This document shows positions 46,829-56,339 of a stretch of DNA of 64,000 nucleotides, one piece after another. Position numbers and translations under genes: made by a program. Position 1 is the stretch's first letter; the number at the start of each line of letters is the position of its first letter. The notes beneath the pieces were generated by a model, which was not told the origin of the DNA, did no database searches, and saw only the letters and a list, made by a program, of their open reading frames with translations. Source of the DNA: an uncultured Bacteroidia bacterium (GTDB lineage Bacteria; Bacteroidota; Bacteroidia; Bacteroidales; F082); NCBI GenBank assembly GCA_913009755.1, contig CAJVWU010000004.1, positions 1 through 64,000 of the forward strand, given 5' to 3'.

Positions 46829-46861
46829 AAAAAAAGGCCTGCCGGAATTTTCCGGCAAGCC
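46829..46861 (-). terminator. Strong hairpin with T-run before the MmgE/PrpD gene
   Basis: On the minus strand GGCTTGCCGGAA pairs with TTCCGGCAGGCC (one mismatch) and is followed by seven T. It lies 25 bases before the MmgE/PrpD start codon. It either ends an unseen upstream transcript or sits in the leader; a weak -7-like TAGTTTTG lies 12 bases upstream, at 46880-46873. Confidence 0.8.
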
Positions 46862-47274
46862 CTGTCATAAACCAAAACTACCTACTACCGATATCGCCTT
46901 TCTTCAATAATTCGTTTCACACTCACTGCGTGGCTTTATTATAGCCTGTAACCCGGCAGGTAAAAGAAAGGTTTATAAGTTGAAGCATCCATTTCAGTTT
47001 GTTGTAAGATGTACCGGAATGAACCGGAACCTGATATTTTTGAAACAATCGGATAATAATGCGACTTCTGGTATAGCATGACTATTTTGTTAATCGTGTC
47101 TGGTAAATGTTAATACGGGAAAATAAAAAATAGGTTTCAGTTGAGTGTCAATTAATCATGATTCCACCGAATCTTTTATCCGAATAGATAACACCATTCT
47201 TTTCCGATTGAAAGATTGGCTTCCGAACAACATGAATTATTTTAAACACGGAATTCAACATTTGGCCTGATTAA

Positions 47275-47306: not shown

Positions 47307-47387
47307 GCCTATTCATTCAACCAAAACTTATGAATTAATCAGGTTAGCAATTGATAAAGTGTTCCGCGAAATCAGAGGACAAAATAA

Positions 47388-47422
47388 ATCTGCCTTTTTG
47401 AAATTTTCAAAAAGGCAGATTC
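47388..47422 (-). terminator. Terminator of the orphan LytTR-type promoter unit
   Basis: A perfect 16-bp inverted repeat (AATCTGCCTTTTTGAA, three-base loop, TTCAAAAAGGCAGATT). On the minus strand it is followed by TTATTTTG. The flanking sequence resembles the 3' end of the small gene at 47755-48000. Confidence 0.8.
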
Positions 47423-47538
47423 AGGATTGCATAAGATGAAAAGATGAGTGTTGTTAGTGAGTTAGTCCGTGAAAAATAAATATAGTTTATAGTTCGTTTT
47501 TGTTGTTTTTAGTTTGTCGTTCTTTTATAATTGAACTG
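47388..47538 (-). ncRNA. Candidate short RNA or gene relic behind a LytTR-type promoter
   Basis: A promoter-like element (TAAATTTG at 47546-47539) and a strong terminator (47422-47388) bracket about 150 bases on the minus strand with no ORF; the only ATG stops after three codons. The 3' half resembles the end of the small gene at 47755-48000, including an ACGGAC-stop matching its last two codons. It may be a small RNA, or a leader fused to a 3' end after deletion of the coding part. Confidence 0.45.
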
Positions 47539-47546
47539 CAAATTTA
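47539..47546 (-). promoter_or_regulatory. Putative -7 element at the orphan unit
   Basis: TAAATTTG on the minus strand. Its first base lies 41 bases from the nearest copy of the 21-bp-spaced direct repeat, almost the same geometry (42 bases) as in front of the adhesin gene. Confidence 0.5.
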
Positions 47547-47586
47547 TGATTACCATCTGTTTTCCAAAGAAAAAAATCAACGGATT

Positions 47587-47637
47587 GATAAGTGTGATTT
47601 TTTAACGGATAAGTGTTATATTTTATTGGATAAGTGT
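47587..47637 (-). promoter_or_regulatory. Triple direct repeat, predicted LytTR regulator binding sites (copy 2)
   Basis: Three identical words GATAAGTGT (plus strand) at 47587-47595, 47608-47616 and 47629-47637, at exactly 21-base steps. On the minus strand they read ACACTTATC. LytTR-type regulators such as AgrA bind 9-bp direct repeats with 12-13 bases between them, i.e. a 21-22 bp period. The same array occurs at 53548-53598. Confidence 0.7.
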
Positions 47638-47682
47638 AATCATTGGAATCCGGAGATTTGGAAGACGGTTATCCCGGGAAGA

Positions 47683-47723
47683 TAAAAAGCCCGCCCCTTT
47701 GGAATTTTTCAAAAGGACAGGCT
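47683..47723 (-). terminator. Terminator of the adhesin/small-protein operon
   Basis: On the minus strand AGCCTGTCCTTTTGAA pairs imperfectly with TTCCAAAGGGGCGGGCT and is followed by TTTTTATC. It lies 32 bases past the stop of the small membrane-tailed protein gene. Confidence 0.8.
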
Positions 47724-47754
47724 CGCATTGTATGTGAAAAATGAGTATCTTATA

Positions 47755-48000
47755 CTATAAGTCCGTGTCTTGCCCGGTTTTTTTCGCCAGGTCAACTACT
47801 TTTTTTCCTCCATACGCAGCCCCGAGGGTGAGCAATACAATAATTCCCCCGCTAATGGGCGCACCTCCGCCAACAGGCGGGTCACTTCCGGTGGGGCCGT
47901 TACCCGGATCCTGCGGGCTCATCATTTGTGCAAAAGAGAACGACGTTGCGAATACGAAAACAAGACTTATTATGATCTTTTTTAAATATTTGATTTTCAT
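47755..48000 (-). CDS. Small secreted protein with glycine-rich C-terminal membrane tail
   Basis: An 81-residue protein from ATG 48000; a longer in-frame start at 48093 would run back into the adhesin gene. It has a signal peptide (about 1-25, ending SFSFAQ), a Pro/Gly-rich linker (SPQDPGNGPTGSDPPVGGG), then APISGGIIVLLTLGAAYGG followed by KKVVDLAKK. The order P-I-x-G-G, hydrophobic segment, Lys cluster resembles the PID-CTERM-type sorting tails of small Bacteroidota proteins; this match is from memory and approximate. It starts 19 bases after the adhesin stop, so both are probably on one LytTR-controlled transcript. Confidence 0.65.
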   Translation of the reverse strand: MKIKYLKKIIISLVFVFATSFSFAQMMSPQDPGNGPTGSDPPVGGGAPISGGIIVLLTLGAAYGGKKVVDLAKKTGQDTDL

Positions 48001-48019: not shown

Positions 48020-51000
48020 TTATTTGACAAAAACTTTGGTTGTTGTAACACCGGATTCACAGGCCGTCCTGACGATGACAAATGCGTTATCAACGTTTAC
48101 AGAAATCCTGTTGAGTGTTGACGGATAAGCTGTTGTTTCCAAAACCGTCCGGCCAAACATGTCGTATATCCAGACTTCTTTCTTTTCTTTGGCAGCTTTT
48201 CCCTGGCTCCGGATATAGACCGCTCCGTCAAAAGCATAAACTTTGATGCCCAGATCATCTGCCTGGCCTTCAACACCGGTATATACCGGGTTAAAGTGCA
48301 GGACAAAACGAACAGGATCATCGTCAACGTAAGCTTCAAATTTATAGACCGGTTCATCAACAAGGTTTTGTACATTACCCGTTAAAAGGTCTTCCAGTAA
48401 CACCTCCGTTTCGGGCAGGTATTTCAGGTCGGCTTCAAGCTTTTGATCACCGTTTACTCCTGCTTTGTACCCTACCTTCACATCATAACCTTCTTTGGTT
48501 AACAAGGGCAAACCGTTAATGCTTAATTGCTCGCCATATTGCTCCGAATAAATCTGCGGGGCATCCCCTTCAAAAGCAAACATTTTACGGGTGTCGTAAG
48601 TATCAAATTCTTCCGATGCTTCCTCAATAAAGGCAATATTCATTTCATCGTAACCATTGTCCATTAACGCACGCAGGGACATGTGCATAGGCCCGTCGCC
48701 ATCTTCTGCCGCACTGTTTTTATAAAAACCTGTTGCAGAATGAACCCTTGCCGCCATAGGTATGGTAATGGAAGGTGCTGTACCGGTGGCCTGGATAAAG
48801 AACCCCTGTCCCATGGGGATAATACCGCCTGTAAGGCTTCCGGTTCCGGAAGATGTGTTCCAGTCAAGAAAAGTTCCACCGGTTCCGCTGTTTGGGTCCC
48901 AAACCCAGAAAGAAGTGGTTACATCGGTCAGGCTCCAAGTGCCTTCATCCAGATCAACGGGGCTGGCAAACGGGTTGCCGATGAGGTTATAACCCAGTGG
49001 TTCAGGGCCTGTATAACTTAACGGTGGCGTTGAAGAAGTGGTCAGGGTAACATTAGACCGTTGCAGGGCCCCGGTATAGTTTATGGTAACATTGTTGCTG
49101 GTTTCCACCCAGATTTCAAAACCCGCACCCGAAGGCATCGGATCAGTCAGAACATAAAGGTATGTCCTGGTGTTGTCCGGTTCGTTGTAATGCCGCAGCC
49201 AGACATCCGGGCTGTGGTTAAAATACAGGCTGTTCAGGGTTTGCCCCTGTGTTGATGCCGACACATCGTGCCATACGCCGCCGGTAACATAACGTTGAAC
49301 AGTTGCGTTGCCCGTAACGATTAGTAAACCATCGTTCAAGACAGAAGCATCACCCGTAGCATCCGAGGCAACAAGCAGGCTGCCAATGGTGGTTGCACTG
49401 CTCAGTGTGGGATAGTTTGTTAAACCCGTCGGGATGGTTACAGCCGTTCCTGAAGAAGGCAAACCGCCCGTCCAGTTCCCCGGTTTGTCCCAATCATGGT
49501 CCACCGAGCCGTTCCAGGTGGTAGCCGTAACCTGCTCAAGAACTTTGACATCATCTACATATAAATTCCATTCGTTCATATCACTATAACCGTGGAATCC
49601 AACATAGTAAGTACCGGTGGTTGCCGGGGTAAAAGTTTCCGAACCTGCCCACCAGCCAACAGTTACATTGTTATCATCAAAAATAGGGGTTCCCGACATG
49701 GATGCGGCATTGGCTGCATTTCCCCAGTCCACGGCCAGTTTCTCAGGATAACTATCACTGGCAGCAGTATAGGCAAAGGAAACTTCGTAAGTAACCCCAC
49801 CGGTTAATTGCAAACCCTGGGTAAAGAACCAGTCATTCATATTTAGCGATGTATTATAAGTAATCATCGCTGAATTGGGGGGGCTCACATATTCTGCAGT
49901 GGTTGTCTCCCAAACGATGTTATCCCCATTGACATCTTCCACGGTCATACAAGGCGGGAAAGCAGGAGCTGTCACCCCGTCAAAATTCTCAAAGTAGGGA
50001 ATCGAGGTTGTGCCACATACGGTAGTAAATGTACTGGGGCCGGTCCAGGTGCTTCCACAGCCTGCCTGTACATACCAGTCGTAGGTAGTACTTGCCGTTA
50101 ATCCACTAAGCGGGTAAGGATTTTGTGTTGTTCCGGTTATCATGGTTCCGCTACCCTGGGTAAATCCTGTTGGGCCCCACTCAATATTCCATGTTGATGC
50201 CGTACTGGTCCAGCCGAGGTCAGCCGAGGTGGTTGTAATGTTGCTTTCGGTTTGGGCTGTTGGGGCAGGACAGGCTACTGTTGTGGTAAATGTACTTGGC
50301 CCCGTCCATGTGCTCTGGTCACCACCGCAATCATCACGAACATACCAGTCATAAGTTGTCGTTGGCGATAATCCGGTCAGGGTATATGGATTGTTTGTTA
50401 TGCCTGTTACCATCGTTCCACTGCCCTGGGTAAAGCCGGTTGGCCCCCATTCAATGTCCCAGGTAGAAGAACCTCCGGTTGTCCAGCCCAGATCAGCCTG
50501 AAAACCTGAAATGTTGCTTTCGGTCTGGGCAGTGGGGGCGGGGCAGGATGGCATTTCCATTACGCTGACGTCATCAACCAATATATCGTTGTAATATTGG
50601 GTAGCTGCCGTTCCGGTAACAATAAACCGGAACTGAACATCACCTGTGATGGTATAGCCTGACAGATCAAAAAGGCCTTGTTGCCAGGAAGCATCATCTC
50701 CGGAATAGGTTAACAGATTGTTCCATGCCGCACCATCCCAGAAATCCACCGTCAGGGTGTTGTCATCTCCGGGGTTATTGGTGTTATTACTAAAAAAATA
50801 AAATTCAACTGCAGGGGTAGTTAATCCGCTCACATCCATATAAGGAGTAACCAGTGCGTTTTGCTGGATATCGCCTGAACCGTCAATCCAGGCATAATTT
50901 GTTCCTCCTCCGGGGGTATGGTCACCTGCCGCCGCCGCTCCATACCCGGCACCTGTGCTGAATAACCAGCTTTCGGCACCTGAATTGTCCCAACAGGTTG

Positions 51001-53411
51001 GTGTGGAAGAACTTGAAAAATCCTCTGAAAAAGGTGTGGAAAATGTGGCACAAGCCGTTGTAAAGGTACTTGGCCCTGTCCATGTACTAGAGGAACCGCC
51101 GCCGCAATCAGTCTGTACATACCAGTCGTAGGTTGTCGTTGGCGATAATCCGGTAAGCGAATAGGGGTTTGAACCCGTTCCGGTGATCATGGTTCCGCTG
51201 CCCTGTGTAAACCCGGTCGGGCCCCACTCAATGTTCCAGGTAGTTTCGCTTCCACCCGGTGTCCAGCCGAGGTCAGCCGAGGTGGCTGTAATGTTACTTT
51301 CGGTTTGGGCTGTGGGTGCGGGGCAGGATGGTGTTAGCTCACAGGCTAGATCATCAAATGTAATATACCAGGGACTTGAGGTAGCCACTACATGAATTCC
51401 CATGTAAGTAGGTGCCTGAAGTTGCCGGTGTAAAACTGCCCCGGTATTCAACATAGGTTGTATTGGTTGGACCGGAAACAGGGGTGCCTATTGCTGTGGT
51501 CATATCCCCTGATGTTTGCCCGGTTCCATATTTTGCTTCTACGGTTGTCCATCCTGAATTCCCATCGGTAACATACCAAAATGAGAAATCATAGGATGTT
51601 CCACCTGTAAGGTCAATAGGTGGTGAAAATAACCAGTCATCAGCACTATAATTTGTATAAATATAATTGGTGCCGGTCCTTGCATCCCTGTTATAAGTTT
51701 GGGGAGCATCAGCAGTAGCCCAGTCACCGTCTTCAGCCATACAATTGGGCACTATTCCCGCACCGACGGAAGGCATACCTTCAAACCCTTCATTCCAGGA
51801 GACTGAAACTGATGTACACGCCGTTGTAAACGTACTCGGCCCTGTCCAGGTGCTCTGGTCTCCTCCGCAATCGGCCTGCACATACCAGTCGTAGGTTGTG
51901 GCTGCTGTTAAGCCGGTAAGTGTGTATGGGTGGGAAGAAACAGCCTGTGTTGTGCCGCTGCCCTGTGTAAAACCTGTCGGGCCATATTCAATGTTCCATC
52001 CTGTTTCGCTTCCGCCGTTTGTCCAGTCAAGGTCAGCCGAAGTGGCTGTGATGTTGCTTTCGGCCTGGGCAGTGGGGGCGGGGCAGGAAGGCGGGGTACG
52101 TACCTGGAAATTGTCCACATAAAAATTGTAATCTTCAGTATCGTCAACAGAACCATCGCTTGCCCAGAATGCAAATTGAACCGGGTTTCCTGTATAAGCA
52201 CTGATATCCACAGTTGTATTATCACCTGTATTGGATGGTGTGTTGCCTGTATTCCAAGTCATCAGGTTGCTCCATGTTATACCGCCATCGGTTGTTACCA
52301 ACAATTGTACTTCATCATCCGACCCCATGTTGGAGGAACCCGTTCCCGAATATGTAGTAACAGCAACATCAAAATTTAATTCGAAACCGCCACCTGTAAG
52401 ATCAAAATTAGGTGTAATGAGCCAATCTTGGTGAGATGTGCTATAAAGGTTTATCCTTGCGCTTCCTGTTGTGCCATTATTGGCAAAGCCATCAGATGTC
52501 CACGCACTTATTCCTGATGTACCGGTTGGGCCGGTTACAGGTCCTGTGTTTTCATCCCAGCAATTGGGCAAGAAAGTTGTGAAGTCTTCAAGATAATCAG
52601 GTGTGTATGTTCCACAAGTCGTAGTAAAAGTACCCGGCCCTGTCCATGTACTCTGGTCACCGCCGCAATCTGCCTGTACATACCAGTCGTAAGTGGTAGC
52701 TGCCGTTAAACCGGTCAGCGAATATGGGTTTGAACCGGTTCCGGTAATCATGGTTCCGCTACCCTGGGTAAAGCCGGTGGGTCCCCACTCGATGTTCCAT
52801 GTAGTTGCTGTGCCGTTTTCTGTCCATCCGAGGTTAGCCGAGTTGGTTGTAATATTGGTTTCGGTTTGGGCGGAGGGGGCGGGGCAGGAAGGAACGTAAA
52901 GAGCAGGTCCTGATACATCGTCAACATATAAGTAATATTGATAATTACTGTAATAATGAATAGCAACGTACTTTGTGCCAACAGGCAAATCAGTTTTTGA
53001 GTATTGCTGCCATGTAGTAGATGCATCAGAAATTTCGGAACTCCATGTAAAATCAGTACTTACATCGGTTCCTGTTGATGACCAACCAACTTTGAAAACC
53101 TCAGATCCTGATGAATATCTTCTATACCAAAAAGTTATGGTCTGATCCCCACTTGTTGTAACAAGCTGTGGAGTAATAAGATATTCGTCATAACCGCTAC
53201 CGCATGAGGAAAAAGAACTGAAGCGGGCCGAATAGGTGCCACTATGGGCATAGGTACTGCTCTGGGTTATGTCGTTTGTTGGCGAGCAAGCTCCCTGGTC
53301 AATAGTCCAATCAGTTGGCGGCCAGGTTTCAAATCCTTCGCTTAATTGCCCAAATGCAAAACCACTAAATGCGAGGGCAAAAAGTAATAAAAGTAATTTT
53401 TTTCGTTTCAT
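48020..53411 (-). pseudogene. Giant modular T9SS adhesin interrupted by one frameshift
   Basis: Two overlapping frames (53411-51354 and 51454-48020) form one protein of about 1,795 residues, broken by one extra base near 51406: the text reads GTYLHG in the first frame and TYMGIH in the second, where G-T-Y-Y-M-G-I-H is expected, as in GTYYVGFH later in the same protein. Order: signal peptide (MKRKKLLLLLFALAFSGFAF), then five choice-of-anchor-J (MAM-like) modules alternating with five near-identical fibronectin III modules (CPAPTAQTESNIT to TWTGPSTFTTA), a C-terminal region of about 420 residues, and a T9SS-type sorting tail (VWIYDMFGRTVLET to TTTKVFVK). It is probably a cell-surface adhesin. 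A sequencing or assembly error could explain the break, in which case the gene is intact. Confidence 0.8.
51404..51410 (-). other. Site of the single-base frameshift in the adhesin
   Basis: Plus-strand GTAAGTA; removing one A (51406 or 51407) restores a continuous frame reading G-T-Y-Y-M-G-I-H. The run is only two bases long, so slippage in a long homopolymer is not the cause. Confidence 0.75.
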
Positions 53412-53547: not shown

Positions 53548-53598
53548 GATAAGTGTAATGTTATGATGGATAAGTGTGTACATTTACAGGGTAAGTGT
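53548..53598 (-). promoter_or_regulatory. Triple direct repeat, predicted LytTR regulator binding sites (copy 1)
   Basis: GATAAGTGT at 53548-53556 and 53569-53577 and GGTAAGTGT at 53590-53598 (plus strand), at exactly 21-base steps. They lie 137-187 bases upstream of the adhesin start codon and just past the stop of the LytTR regulator gene. The arrangement matches direct-repeat sites of LytTR proteins. Confidence 0.75.
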
Positions 53599-53662: not shown

Positions 53663-54406
53663 CTAAAGTGAATTAAACTTTTCGAGCAACCGTTCTTTTT
53701 TCCGGCTGGAAACGGGTACTTTTTTACCATTGCTCATCAAAACGTAAGCGTTGCTTATTTTGTGAAACTTTTTCACTTCGTTCAGGTTGACCAGGTAAGA
53801 ATGGTGTACCCTGAAAAAATGATGATCTTTCAACAATTCATCGTATTCTTTCAGATGGTTGGAAACAGTGAGCTGTGAACCGTCTTTCAGGAAAAAGTGT
53901 GTGTAGCTTGAATCGGCCTCGCAATTGATGATGTCGGAAATATTGACCAGGTGTATTTCGTCAGCAGTTTTCAGCACGATTCTTTTTTGTTCCCTGTTGT
54001 CAATATTGTTCAATAAAGTTTCAAGGTTGACTTCCGTCTTTTTTCTACTGACAGCTTCTGCAGCTTTGTCAACTGCCAATGTAAGCTCTTCAACGCTGAA
54101 CGGTTTTAAAATATAATCAAACGCGCTGAATTTAATGGCTTTCAGTGCATATCCTTCGTGGGCCGTAACAAAAATAATCTGAAAATCAATGTTGAAAACA
54201 TGCCGTAAAATATCAAAAGCCGTGCCGTCAGAAAGTTCCACATCAATCAAAAGGATATCCGGGTGACCGTTGTAGATGGCATCAATACCGGTTTTAATAT
54301 TATGCCCGTTGGCAACAACTTTTATATCATGGCATAAACGGTTGATGATATTTGTTATGGCTTCCCGTGTTTTGGGCTCATCTTCTATGACCACCGCTTT
54401 CAGCAT
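53663..54406 (-). CDS. LytTR-family response regulator
   Basis: A 247-residue regulator from ATG 54406; an in-frame start eight codons upstream is less likely. The receiver domain (about 1-120) has the acidic pair in VVIEDEPKTR, the phospho-acceptor Asp55 in DILLIDVELSDG and the conserved Lys in YILKPFSVEEL. The LytTR DNA-binding domain (about 145-245) has VNISDIINCEADSSYTHFFL and HHFFRVHHSYLVNLNEVKKF. It follows the histidine kinase gene with a 44-base gap, forming a two-component pair. The direct repeats at 53548-53598 and 47587-47637 are its likely targets. Confidence 0.92.
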   Translation of the reverse strand: MLKAVVIEDEPKTREAITNIINRLCHDIKVVANGHNIKTGIDAIYNGHPDILLIDVELSDGTAFDILRHVFNIDFQIIFVTAHEGYALKAIKFSAFDYILKPFSVEELTLAVDKAAEAVSRKKTEVNLETLLNNIDNREQKRIVLKTADEIHLVNISDIINCEADSSYTHFFLKDGSQLTVSNHLKEYDELLKDHHFFRVHHSYLVNLNEVKKFHKISNAYVLMSNGKKVPVSSRKKERLLEKFNSL

Positions 54407-54450: not shown

Positions 54451-56274
54451 TTAATCCAGTTTCATTTTAAAGGTAACCCTTGTGCCTGCCGGTTCCCTGT
54501 TTTGATCATAAAGGTCTTCTATTTCCATACTTATTTTTTTCTTATATCTCCTGGCCATCAGATGAATGCGCTCTTTCGTGATTTCAGTGGCCAGTGACAG
54601 GTGTTTTTCGTCTTTGTTCAGTTTTTCCGCATTCTCCCTTCCGATACCATTATCCTCAATCATCACGGTCAGTTCATTGTTTTTTTCTTCAAAAAGGATT
54701 TTCAGAAATCCTTTTTTCGGGGCGGGGGCGAGGCCGTGAATGATTGCATTTTCGATAAACGGCTGGGCAAGCATGGGCGGAAAAAGTATTTCTTCGGGAT
54801 GCGCAACTTTTACTTCGAATGAATAATCGAACTTATCGCTAAACCGTAACTTTTCCAGTTTTACAAATTGTTGCAAGACCTCTATTTCTTTATCCAGTGT
54901 AATAAAACTTTTGTTTGTCTGCTGTAAAATACTCCGGATCAGTTTGGCAAAGTCAACCAGATATTCCGAGGCCTTTTCCACATTATTATCCAGCAAAAAG
55001 GTTTGAATGGACATCAGCGAATTAAACACAAAGTGGGGTGACGTCTGCGAGCGGAACAAGCGGGATTGTAACGTGATGACTTCCTGTTCTTTTTTATAAC
55101 GGTTTTTCAGGAAAATCAAAACGATGATAATGATTGTTAAAACAAAAATGGTGATCAGGGCAAAGGAAACCGTTCTTGCCCACGTAAGTTTCAACTCATT
55201 TAATTCACCCTGTTTTTTCAGCATTTTAATTTCATGTTCCCTTTTCTCCAGTTCGAAATTGGTTTCAAGCTGATGGATTTTTTTAATTTTTTTGAGGTTG
55301 ATGAGCTGATCCCTGATTTGGGCATATTTTCTAAAACACATTAAGGCATCTTTGTAATCGCCGGTTTGCTCGTACAATTTCGCCATATCATTGCAAATCT
55401 GCGATTGCATCTTTTTAATTTGATGTTGTTCTGACAACTTGTTGGCCTGCGTGTAATATTTTAAGGCTTCATCATAATTTGATTCACTATGATAAGCCAG
55501 CCCCAGGTAATAAAGTGCCGAAGCAATATCATTAGGGTCTTCTGTTTTTTTGAAAATCGTTAGTGCTTTTTCAAAAAAATCTTTTGCCTTTTCAATTTCC
55601 CCTTTTCTGAGATGGATCAGCCCAAGATTACTATAGATCATGCCCACATCCCTTTTGTCACCGATATTCTTATATATTTTCATGGCCAGGTCATAATAAT
55701 AATAGGCGCTGTCGTTATTGTTAAATACACCTCCATGTATAATGGCTATGTTGTTATAGGTTCCGGCTATACTCGTCTGCTCACCCCTTTCTTTTTTCAG
55801 TTTGAGCGCCTTAAAGTAATAATTAAGCGCTTTGTGGGGCATGTCCATTTCTTCGTAAACAATGCCTATGTTGTTCAATACACTTTCTTTCCCTTCCTTG
55901 TTATTAAGGTACTCATATATATTTAACGATTTTTGGTAATTATAAATTGACAGCGAATAATTTCCGATCATGTCATTGATGACACCGATATTCGAATACA
56001 TCTTGGCAATATACAGGCTGTCGTTTATGCTCCGGGCAATTTCGAGGGATTTTGAAAAATTCCCGAGGGCATCGGCATAATTTGCTTTCCGATATTGCAA
56101 TTTGCCGATCTGATTGAACAGCTTCATTTGTTTAGCCGGTTCCGCATCCACTGCCAGTTGTTTTAAGCTGTCAATATCACCTTGGGGAAATGCAGAAAAC
56201 AAAGGGAAAATAAAGAGTACGATAAAAATAACATGTTGAACTTTATTTTTAAAGAGATGTTTCGATTCATTCAT
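54451..56274 (-). CDS. TPR-containing LytS-like sensor histidine kinase
   Basis: A 607-residue kinase from ATG 56274. After an N-terminal signal or anchor (HVIFIVLFIFPLFSAFPQ) comes an exported region of TPR repeats (about 30-310, e.g. NYADALGNFSKSLEIARSIN, GEIEKAKDFFEKALTIFKKT) and a coiled coil (about 310-355). A single membrane segment follows at about 360-385 (VSFALITIFVLTIIIIVLIF). The cytoplasmic kinase core has the His in RSQTSPHFVFNSL and the ATP-binding blocks FIENAIIHGLAPAPKKG and VMIEDNGIGRENA. It belongs to the His_kinase/LytS class that pairs with LytTR regulators. The sensed signal is unknown. Confidence 0.9.
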   Translation of the reverse strand: MNESKHLFKNKVQHVIFIVLFIFPLFSAFPQGDIDSLKQLAVDAEPAKQMKLFNQIGKLQYRKANYADALGNFSKSLEIARSINDSLYIAKMYSNIGVINDMIGNYSLSIYNYQKSLNIYEYLNNKEGKESVLNNIGIVYEEMDMPHKALNYYFKALKLKKERGEQTSIAGTYNNIAIIHGGVFNNNDSAYYYYDLAMKIYKNIGDKRDVGMIYSNLGLIHLRKGEIEKAKDFFEKALTIFKKTEDPNDIASALYYLGLAYHSESNYDEALKYYTQANKLSEQHQIKKMQSQICNDMAKLYEQTGDYKDALMCFRKYAQIRDQLINLKKIKKIHQLETNFELEKREHEIKMLKKQGELNELKLTWARTVSFALITIFVLTIIIIVLIFLKNRYKKEQEVITLQSRLFRSQTSPHFVFNSLMSIQTFLLDNNVEKASEYLVDFAKLIRSILQQTNKSFITLDKEIEVLQQFVKLEKLRFSDKFDYSFEVKVAHPEEILFPPMLAQPFIENAIIHGLAPAPKKGFLKILFEEKNNELTVMIEDNGIGRENAEKLNKDEKHLSLATEITKERIHLMARRYKKKISMEIEDLYDQNREPAGTRVTFKMKLD

Positions 56275-56278
56275 AACG

Positions 56279-56286
56279 CAAAGATA
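56279..56286 (-). promoter_or_regulatory. Putative -7 element of the kinase gene
   Basis: TATCTTTG on the minus strand ends only five bases before the kinase ATG at 56274. If used, the mRNA would be leaderless or nearly so. Confidence 0.4.
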
Positions 56287-56339
56287 ATGAGTTGTTATTT
56301 CCAACATGTATTTTACTGATTTTTAGCCAACATGTTTTC

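Follow-up and report, generated by a model that had tools for sequence, protein, structure and literature searches.

Three-site repeat arrays beside a Bacteroidales LytTR regulator are very probably LytTR operators, with adhesin genes and a putative small RNA as candidate outputs

Two arrays of three 9-bp words at 21-bp steps bracket an adhesin operon beside the gene for a LytTR response regulator in a 64,000-nucleotide stretch of an uncultured Bacteroidia genome (hereafter, the window). Both are very probably LytTR operators, of a known kind whose copy number is unusual but not without precedent. We consider it probable that they are the operators of the adjacent regulator, giving it both a protein (adhesin) and an RNA output. 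The less expected part of the result is that array 2 appears to front a good Bacteroidota promoter followed by a putative noncoding RNA of ~150 nt.

Results

Two arrays of a shared word

Array 1 (53548-53598) consists of GATAAGTGT, GATAAGTGT and GGTAAGTGT, and array 2 (47587-47637) of GATAAGTGT three times, all as exact matches in the window with a step of exactly 21. The neighboring genes are encoded on the minus strand, where each array shows ACACTTAT(C) in three copies with a period of 21 bp. As 9-bp words, this gives ACACTTACC, ACACTTATC and ACACTTATC for array 1, upstream of the adhesin operon, and ACACTTATC throughout for array 2, upstream of the putative small RNA. The words in both arrays are separated by 12-bp spacers, as in LytTR sites, which are usually pairs of 9-bp direct repeats 10-13 bp apart. 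An earlier, sequence-only reading of this DNA had described the two arrays as identical, which is correct for the words but not for the spacers, as these are not shared.

The array pattern was absent from 100 dinucleotide shuffles of the window, and the window itself held no further match at up to three mismatches. A genome-wide search for more word triples at 21-bp steps, as that reading had proposed, produced no convincing third array in the 4.05-Mb genome and no other pair or triple of comparable quality, the next-best triple being an AT-rich chance match.

Gene neighborhood

The order along the minus strand is phosphofructokinase, TPR histidine kinase, LytTR regulator, array 1, fn3/MAM adhesin, small protein, terminator, array 2, and MmgE/PrpD, with ~780 bp between array 2 and MmgE/PrpD that lack a convincing gene. 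The sensor histidine kinase (54451-56307) combines TPR repeats with a His_kinase domain (PF06580) and is the partner of the regulator (53663-54406). The latter, the putative binder of the arrays, comprises a receiver and a LytTR domain (Pfam Response_reg, 6.5e-16; LytTR, 5.6e-20), and its gene ends 65 bases from array 1, exactly as first reported. The adhesin, an fn3/MAM-like secreted protein, is encoded in two overlapping open reading frames (48020-53411) with a frameshift near 51,400. This frameshift region (51354-51454) may reflect an assembly error or be real; the comparable adhesin of a related genome (G001) is a single open reading frame of 1949 amino acids.

The last gene of the adhesin operon (47755-48000, minus strand) encodes a small secreted or transmembrane protein that is kept in two relatives (G001 and G043), and the operon is closed by an intrinsic-terminator-like hairpin recognized in the sequence (47684-47724, minus strand). 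Counting the window, the small protein was observed 3' of the adhesin in three species (window 47755-48000; L058 12772-13014; L023 7121-7375). It carries a Gly-Pro-rich stretch of the DPPxGGGAPI type and a C-terminal transmembrane segment, together with a weak PID-CTERM match that is below the cut-off.

The two arrays bracket the adhesin operon, and only array 1 is oriented toward it, array 2 being directed the other way. We rejected a role for array 2 in serving the adhesins on the basis of this orientation. The initial view that the arrays lie upstream of adhesin genes held for array 1, but array 2 faces a conserved noncoding block.

Promoter elements and helical phasing

The sequence-only reading had placed TAnnTTT-type -7 elements 41-42 bases downstream of the arrays on the minus strand, and both were found. 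That of array 1, TATCTTTA (53506-53499, minus strand), belongs to the putative adhesin promoter and lies 42 bases past the last CACTTAT. Its counterpart after array 2, TAAATTTG (47546-47539, minus strand), lies 41 bases past the last CACTTAT and forms part of a Bacteroidota-type promoter, TTTG-N18-TAAATTTG (47539-47568, minus strand). Array 2 and this promoter together give the combination of promoter and LytTR repeats expected of RNAs of the RNAIII or VR-RNA type.

Across 17 arrays, some of them closely related and not fully independent, the start of a TAnnTTT(G/A) box is 41-44 bp downstream of the last CACTTAT in 11 cases and 31-33 bp downstream in a further three. Shuffling gave a mean of 0.4 and a maximum of 4, versus the 11 real arrays with the first spacing and the 14 of 17 with either. 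The two distances differ by ~10 bp, or one helical turn, and the 14 arrays share the fixed helical phase upstream of a promoter that is expected of LytTR operators.

Conservation in family genomes

A profile search with the regulator identified close orthologues in five family genomes. All five (G000, which is the window's genome, G017, G043, G001, and G009) have a CACTTAT-type triple with a 21-bp period beside the kinase-regulator pair. The period, whose comparison among relatives had been suggested at the outset, is kept in each of them, with the triple of G001 being degenerate and followed by a short terminated noncoding stretch. In G009, which belongs to another genus, the kinase-regulator pair is flanked by two adhesin genes, each preceded by an array of its own. 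In G043 (JAOZOO010000006), the adhesin operon lies between regulator and array 2, as in the window, and a decayed array 1 is kept with a -7 box at 42 bp; this array scores 15 bits, and random sequence (twenty single strands of 64 kb) reached at most 8.4 bits. G017 (JAADID010000041) lacks an adhesin at the locus; its array starts 37 bp after the regulator stop and is followed by the putative small RNA. The operator most tightly kept with the regulator seems to be the one fronting the conserved putative small RNA, with the intervening adhesin operon apparently optional among relatives.

It is quite unlikely that the regulator represses through the arrays or that their binder is another of the genome's LytTR proteins. 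A three-repeat LytTR repressor does exist in CoxC (PMC11347149), yet the CoxC sites overlap the -35 element, whereas the repeats here end ~42 bp upstream of the -7 box, which is an activator position. The genome carries seven LytTR domains and could supply another binder, but only the orthologues of this regulator have an array next door. We found no comparable repeats within 2-3 kb at the six LytTR paralogue loci of the window's genome or at several LytTR loci elsewhere.

Scans not anchored on LytTR genes

We also ran pattern scans that were not tied to LytTR genes, on 393 Bacteroidales and 395 Bacteroidia genomes; these gave simple repeats and eleven other arrays outside the window's genome. 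The sorting of matches into these two groups was a judgement call. Because these scans took the word of the window as their seed, the invariance of the core in the resulting matrix is partly circular. We set aside (TCACTTA)n simple repeats in six genomes (G217, G243, G370, G479, G569, and G845), as well as pair matches to the 9-bp pattern in G083, G009 (C26), G013, and G140 that were not near LytTR genes, the one in G140 being a repeat inside an open frame.

Five of the eleven arrays (G276, G427, G411, G889, and G720) start ~0-30 bp past the end of a LytTR gene. The null expectation for an array within 1.5 kb of such a gene is ~0.6% (p = 0.0057), under which five of eleven has P ~3e-9. Linkage to LytTR genes is also seen for all five family orthologues. 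The word might still be attributed to chance or to simple-repeat origin rather than to a regulator site, and the same search did return (TCACTTA)n repeats in other genomes, but here the spacers are unique sequence, no shuffle reproduced the arrays, and position, phasing, and LytTR adjacency are conserved. We regard this explanation as highly improbable. Comparative evidence strongly supports reading the arrays as LytTR operators of a three-site form upstream of a promoter. The core idea of the sequence-only reading, an extended LytTR operator in that position, is backed by adjacency, phasing, and family conservation.

What lies 3' of the arrays varies, with large secreted proteins in G411 and G889 and a gene for a GG-leader peptide in G276. 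The G276 locus (L088 8155-8900) consists of a LytTR-domain-only gene, a triple array, and the short GG-leader peptide gene, a layout suggestive of a bacteriocin-like peptide under LytTR control in Bacteroidales. In G427, the LytTR gene is followed by the array, a promoter, a ~150-nt noncoding stretch with a terminator-like hairpin, and then lysS. In two genomes of one distant genus (G648 and G576), an array and its -7 box are accompanied by a terminated hairpin RNA or leader of similar kind, and no LytTR gene is nearby. For G648 and most arrays of its genus, there is none within 1.5 kb, which counts against the operator reading, although a LytTR gene may lie elsewhere in these genomes. The triple arrays at these loci (L106 in G648 and L112 in G576) precede a similar hairpin, its stem having a GGGGAGAG loop and a U-run, which is possibly another small RNA or leader family associated with LytTR arrays.

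A conserved noncoding block after array 2

Array 2 is followed by TAnnTTTG at 41 bp in the window and in two species of the same genus, G017 and G043, and in all three species a block of ~150 nt ending in a hairpin and a T-run follows this promoter. In the window, we annotate the block as a putative small noncoding RNA (47380-47532, minus strand) whose start is placed from the promoter and whose terminator hairpin (47385-47423, minus strand) is supported by covariance. Identity over the aligned block is 78% between G017 and G043 and ~55% between the window and either. The sequence from array to terminator is kept in the three species, and that beyond it decays until further conserved blocks before PrpD.

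The RNA model has five base pairs changed on both sides, four of which are within the terminator hairpin, including C-G to U-A three times; this family rests on three sequences, with covariation mostly in the terminator and a 5' part that is unstructured and A/C-rich. A covariance model of the block matched strongly only at the three loci (E 1e-26 to 1e-36). We attributed weak matches in other genera (E 0.015-0.1) to chance; those inspected fell in unrelated, largely coding sequence. There was no open reading frame of at least 12 codons in the first 150 nt in any of the three species, and on this basis we rejected an encoded short peptide. Searching Rfam yielded only sub-threshold chance matches, with no homology to RNAIII, VR-RNA, or another family. 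Predicted pairing of the small RNA with five neighboring gene starts (adhesin, regulator, kinase, PrpD, and small protein) was no better than with shuffled sequence.

Even if the arrays are LytTR operators, the 150-nt block could serve the MmgE/PrpD gene downstream as an attenuator-containing 5' leader, which we consider unlikely. Each of the three species does have PrpD downstream on the same strand, with a second conserved terminator-like hairpin directly before its start codon. However, ~580 bp of mostly poorly conserved sequence separate the first terminator from PrpD in the window, the separate conserved block before PrpD suggests a promoter or leader of its own, and the gene downstream in G427 is lysS, which has its own TATATTTG box. 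We also observed that the region just before the PrpD start (46829-46905, minus strand) contains a 38-bp stretch (GGCGATATCGGTA.TAGGTAGTTTTGGTTTATGACAGG) and then a strong terminator-like hairpin. The stretch is near-invariant in the three species and single-copy in the genome, and the region may represent a second small RNA or an attenuator.

The 3' end of the adhesin operon with its terminator (47671-47793, minus strand) weakly resembles the 3' end of the small RNA (model E = 0.005), and a shared origin is possible. This similarity, along with the GGATTGATAAGTGT that the two arrays have in common, would fit array 2 and its short transcript being functionless remains of a deleted second adhesin operon, the promoter having fused to the 3' end. 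We assign this scenario little probability, as the block is kept with compensatory terminator changes and promoter boxes in two other species, one of which has no adhesins at the locus.

Discussion

Our preferred interpretation remains that the adjacent regulator uses both arrays as operators. Under this model, the regulator in its phosphorylated form would occupy the three CACTTAT-type words, which would fall on the same side of the helix at a spacing of two turns (21 bp). It would then recruit the housekeeping RNA polymerase to the -7 box ~42 bp (or ~32 bp) downstream, activating rather than repressing. The fn3 adhesin operon would be turned on from array 1 and the ~150-nt noncoding RNA, which ends in a terminator, from array 2, so that the kinase-regulator pair may have a protein output, the adhesins, that is optional among relatives and an RNA output, presumably transcribed and active, that is conserved.

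The individual elements have known counterparts. The word was originally likened to an AgrA site, and its resemblance to LytTR words stands, but the closest published word is the ACCACTTAT of BrsR and related LytTR regulatory systems (LRS), also with 12-bp spacers (PMC6193735), rather than that of AgrA. The BrsR site is ACCACTTAT-12 bp-ACCGCTTAT, with many relatives tabulated (PMC6193735), and the CACTTAT core is identical in ACCACTTAT and the Treponema word GCCACTTAT. As here, the LRS of Streptococcus mutans BrsR/HdrR have 9-bp repeats, 12-bp spacers, a 21-bp period, and the CACTTAT core upstream of a promoter, but they have two copies, ~10 bp from the -35, and belong to autoregulatory pairs of a LytTR protein and a membrane inhibitor (PMC6193735). 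The regulator here differs in carrying a receiver domain and pairing with a His_kinase protein, unlike the LRS combination of a LytTR protein with a transmembrane inhibitor and no kinase. LRS-like operons of Bacteroides have a different, 11-bp word (PMC6193735).

Three-repeat LytTR operators have experimental precedent, that of CoxC being proven and that of RcoM1 described (PMC11347149), meaning the three-site form proposed at first has comparative support but is not a novelty. Those operators likewise have three direct repeats at two-turn intervals, all of which are needed for CoxC, although the word is TTNNNGCN, the regulators are CO-sensing one-component proteins of Proteobacteria, and the CoxC repressor overlaps the -35 (PMC11347149). 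The kinase recalls FimS/FimR of Porphyromonas gingivalis, in which a TPR-containing sensor kinase controls surface adhesins (fimbriae) in Bacteroidales (PMC11053733), but its match to the FimS model (E 7e-40) reaches 136.8 bits against a curated cut-off of 600 bits.

The proposed wiring of protein and RNA outputs would resemble that of AgrA and RNAIII or of VirR and VR-RNA, two cases in Firmicutes in which a LytTR regulator is known to drive a regulatory RNA. In Staphylococcus aureus, AgrA acts through upstream direct repeats on the regulatory RNA next to it as well as on other promoters, but RNAIII has no sequence relation to the RNA here and also encodes delta-hemolysin, the promoters are divergent, and AgrA works in quorum sensing and binds two repeats (PMC4227749). 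In Clostridium perfringens, VirR drives secreted-protein genes and a regulatory RNA through CCAnTT-N15-CCAGTT, also with a 21-bp period, but with two boxes and with a 386-nt VR-RNA located elsewhere in the genome (PMC4963840). In the literature outside subscription papers, we found no Bacteroidota LytTR operator of this form and no small RNA driven by one. An array, promoter, and short terminated noncoding stretch also follow the LytTR gene in G427 and, less closely, in G001. We are evenly divided on whether this represents a Bacteroidota counterpart of AgrA-RNAIII and VirR-VR-RNA, in which a small RNA right after the regulator, under a three-site 21-bp operator, arose in at least two families and adhesin operons were inserted as an optional output.

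LytTR regulators are a common but poorly understood class in Bacteroidota. If correct, our interpretation would tie one such system to surface adhesion and provide a genome-searchable code (three CACTTAT words at 21 bp with a -7 box ~42 or ~32 bp downstream) for the targets of these regulators. It would also suggest that passing LytTR signals on via a neighboring small RNA is a design that recurs in different phyla.
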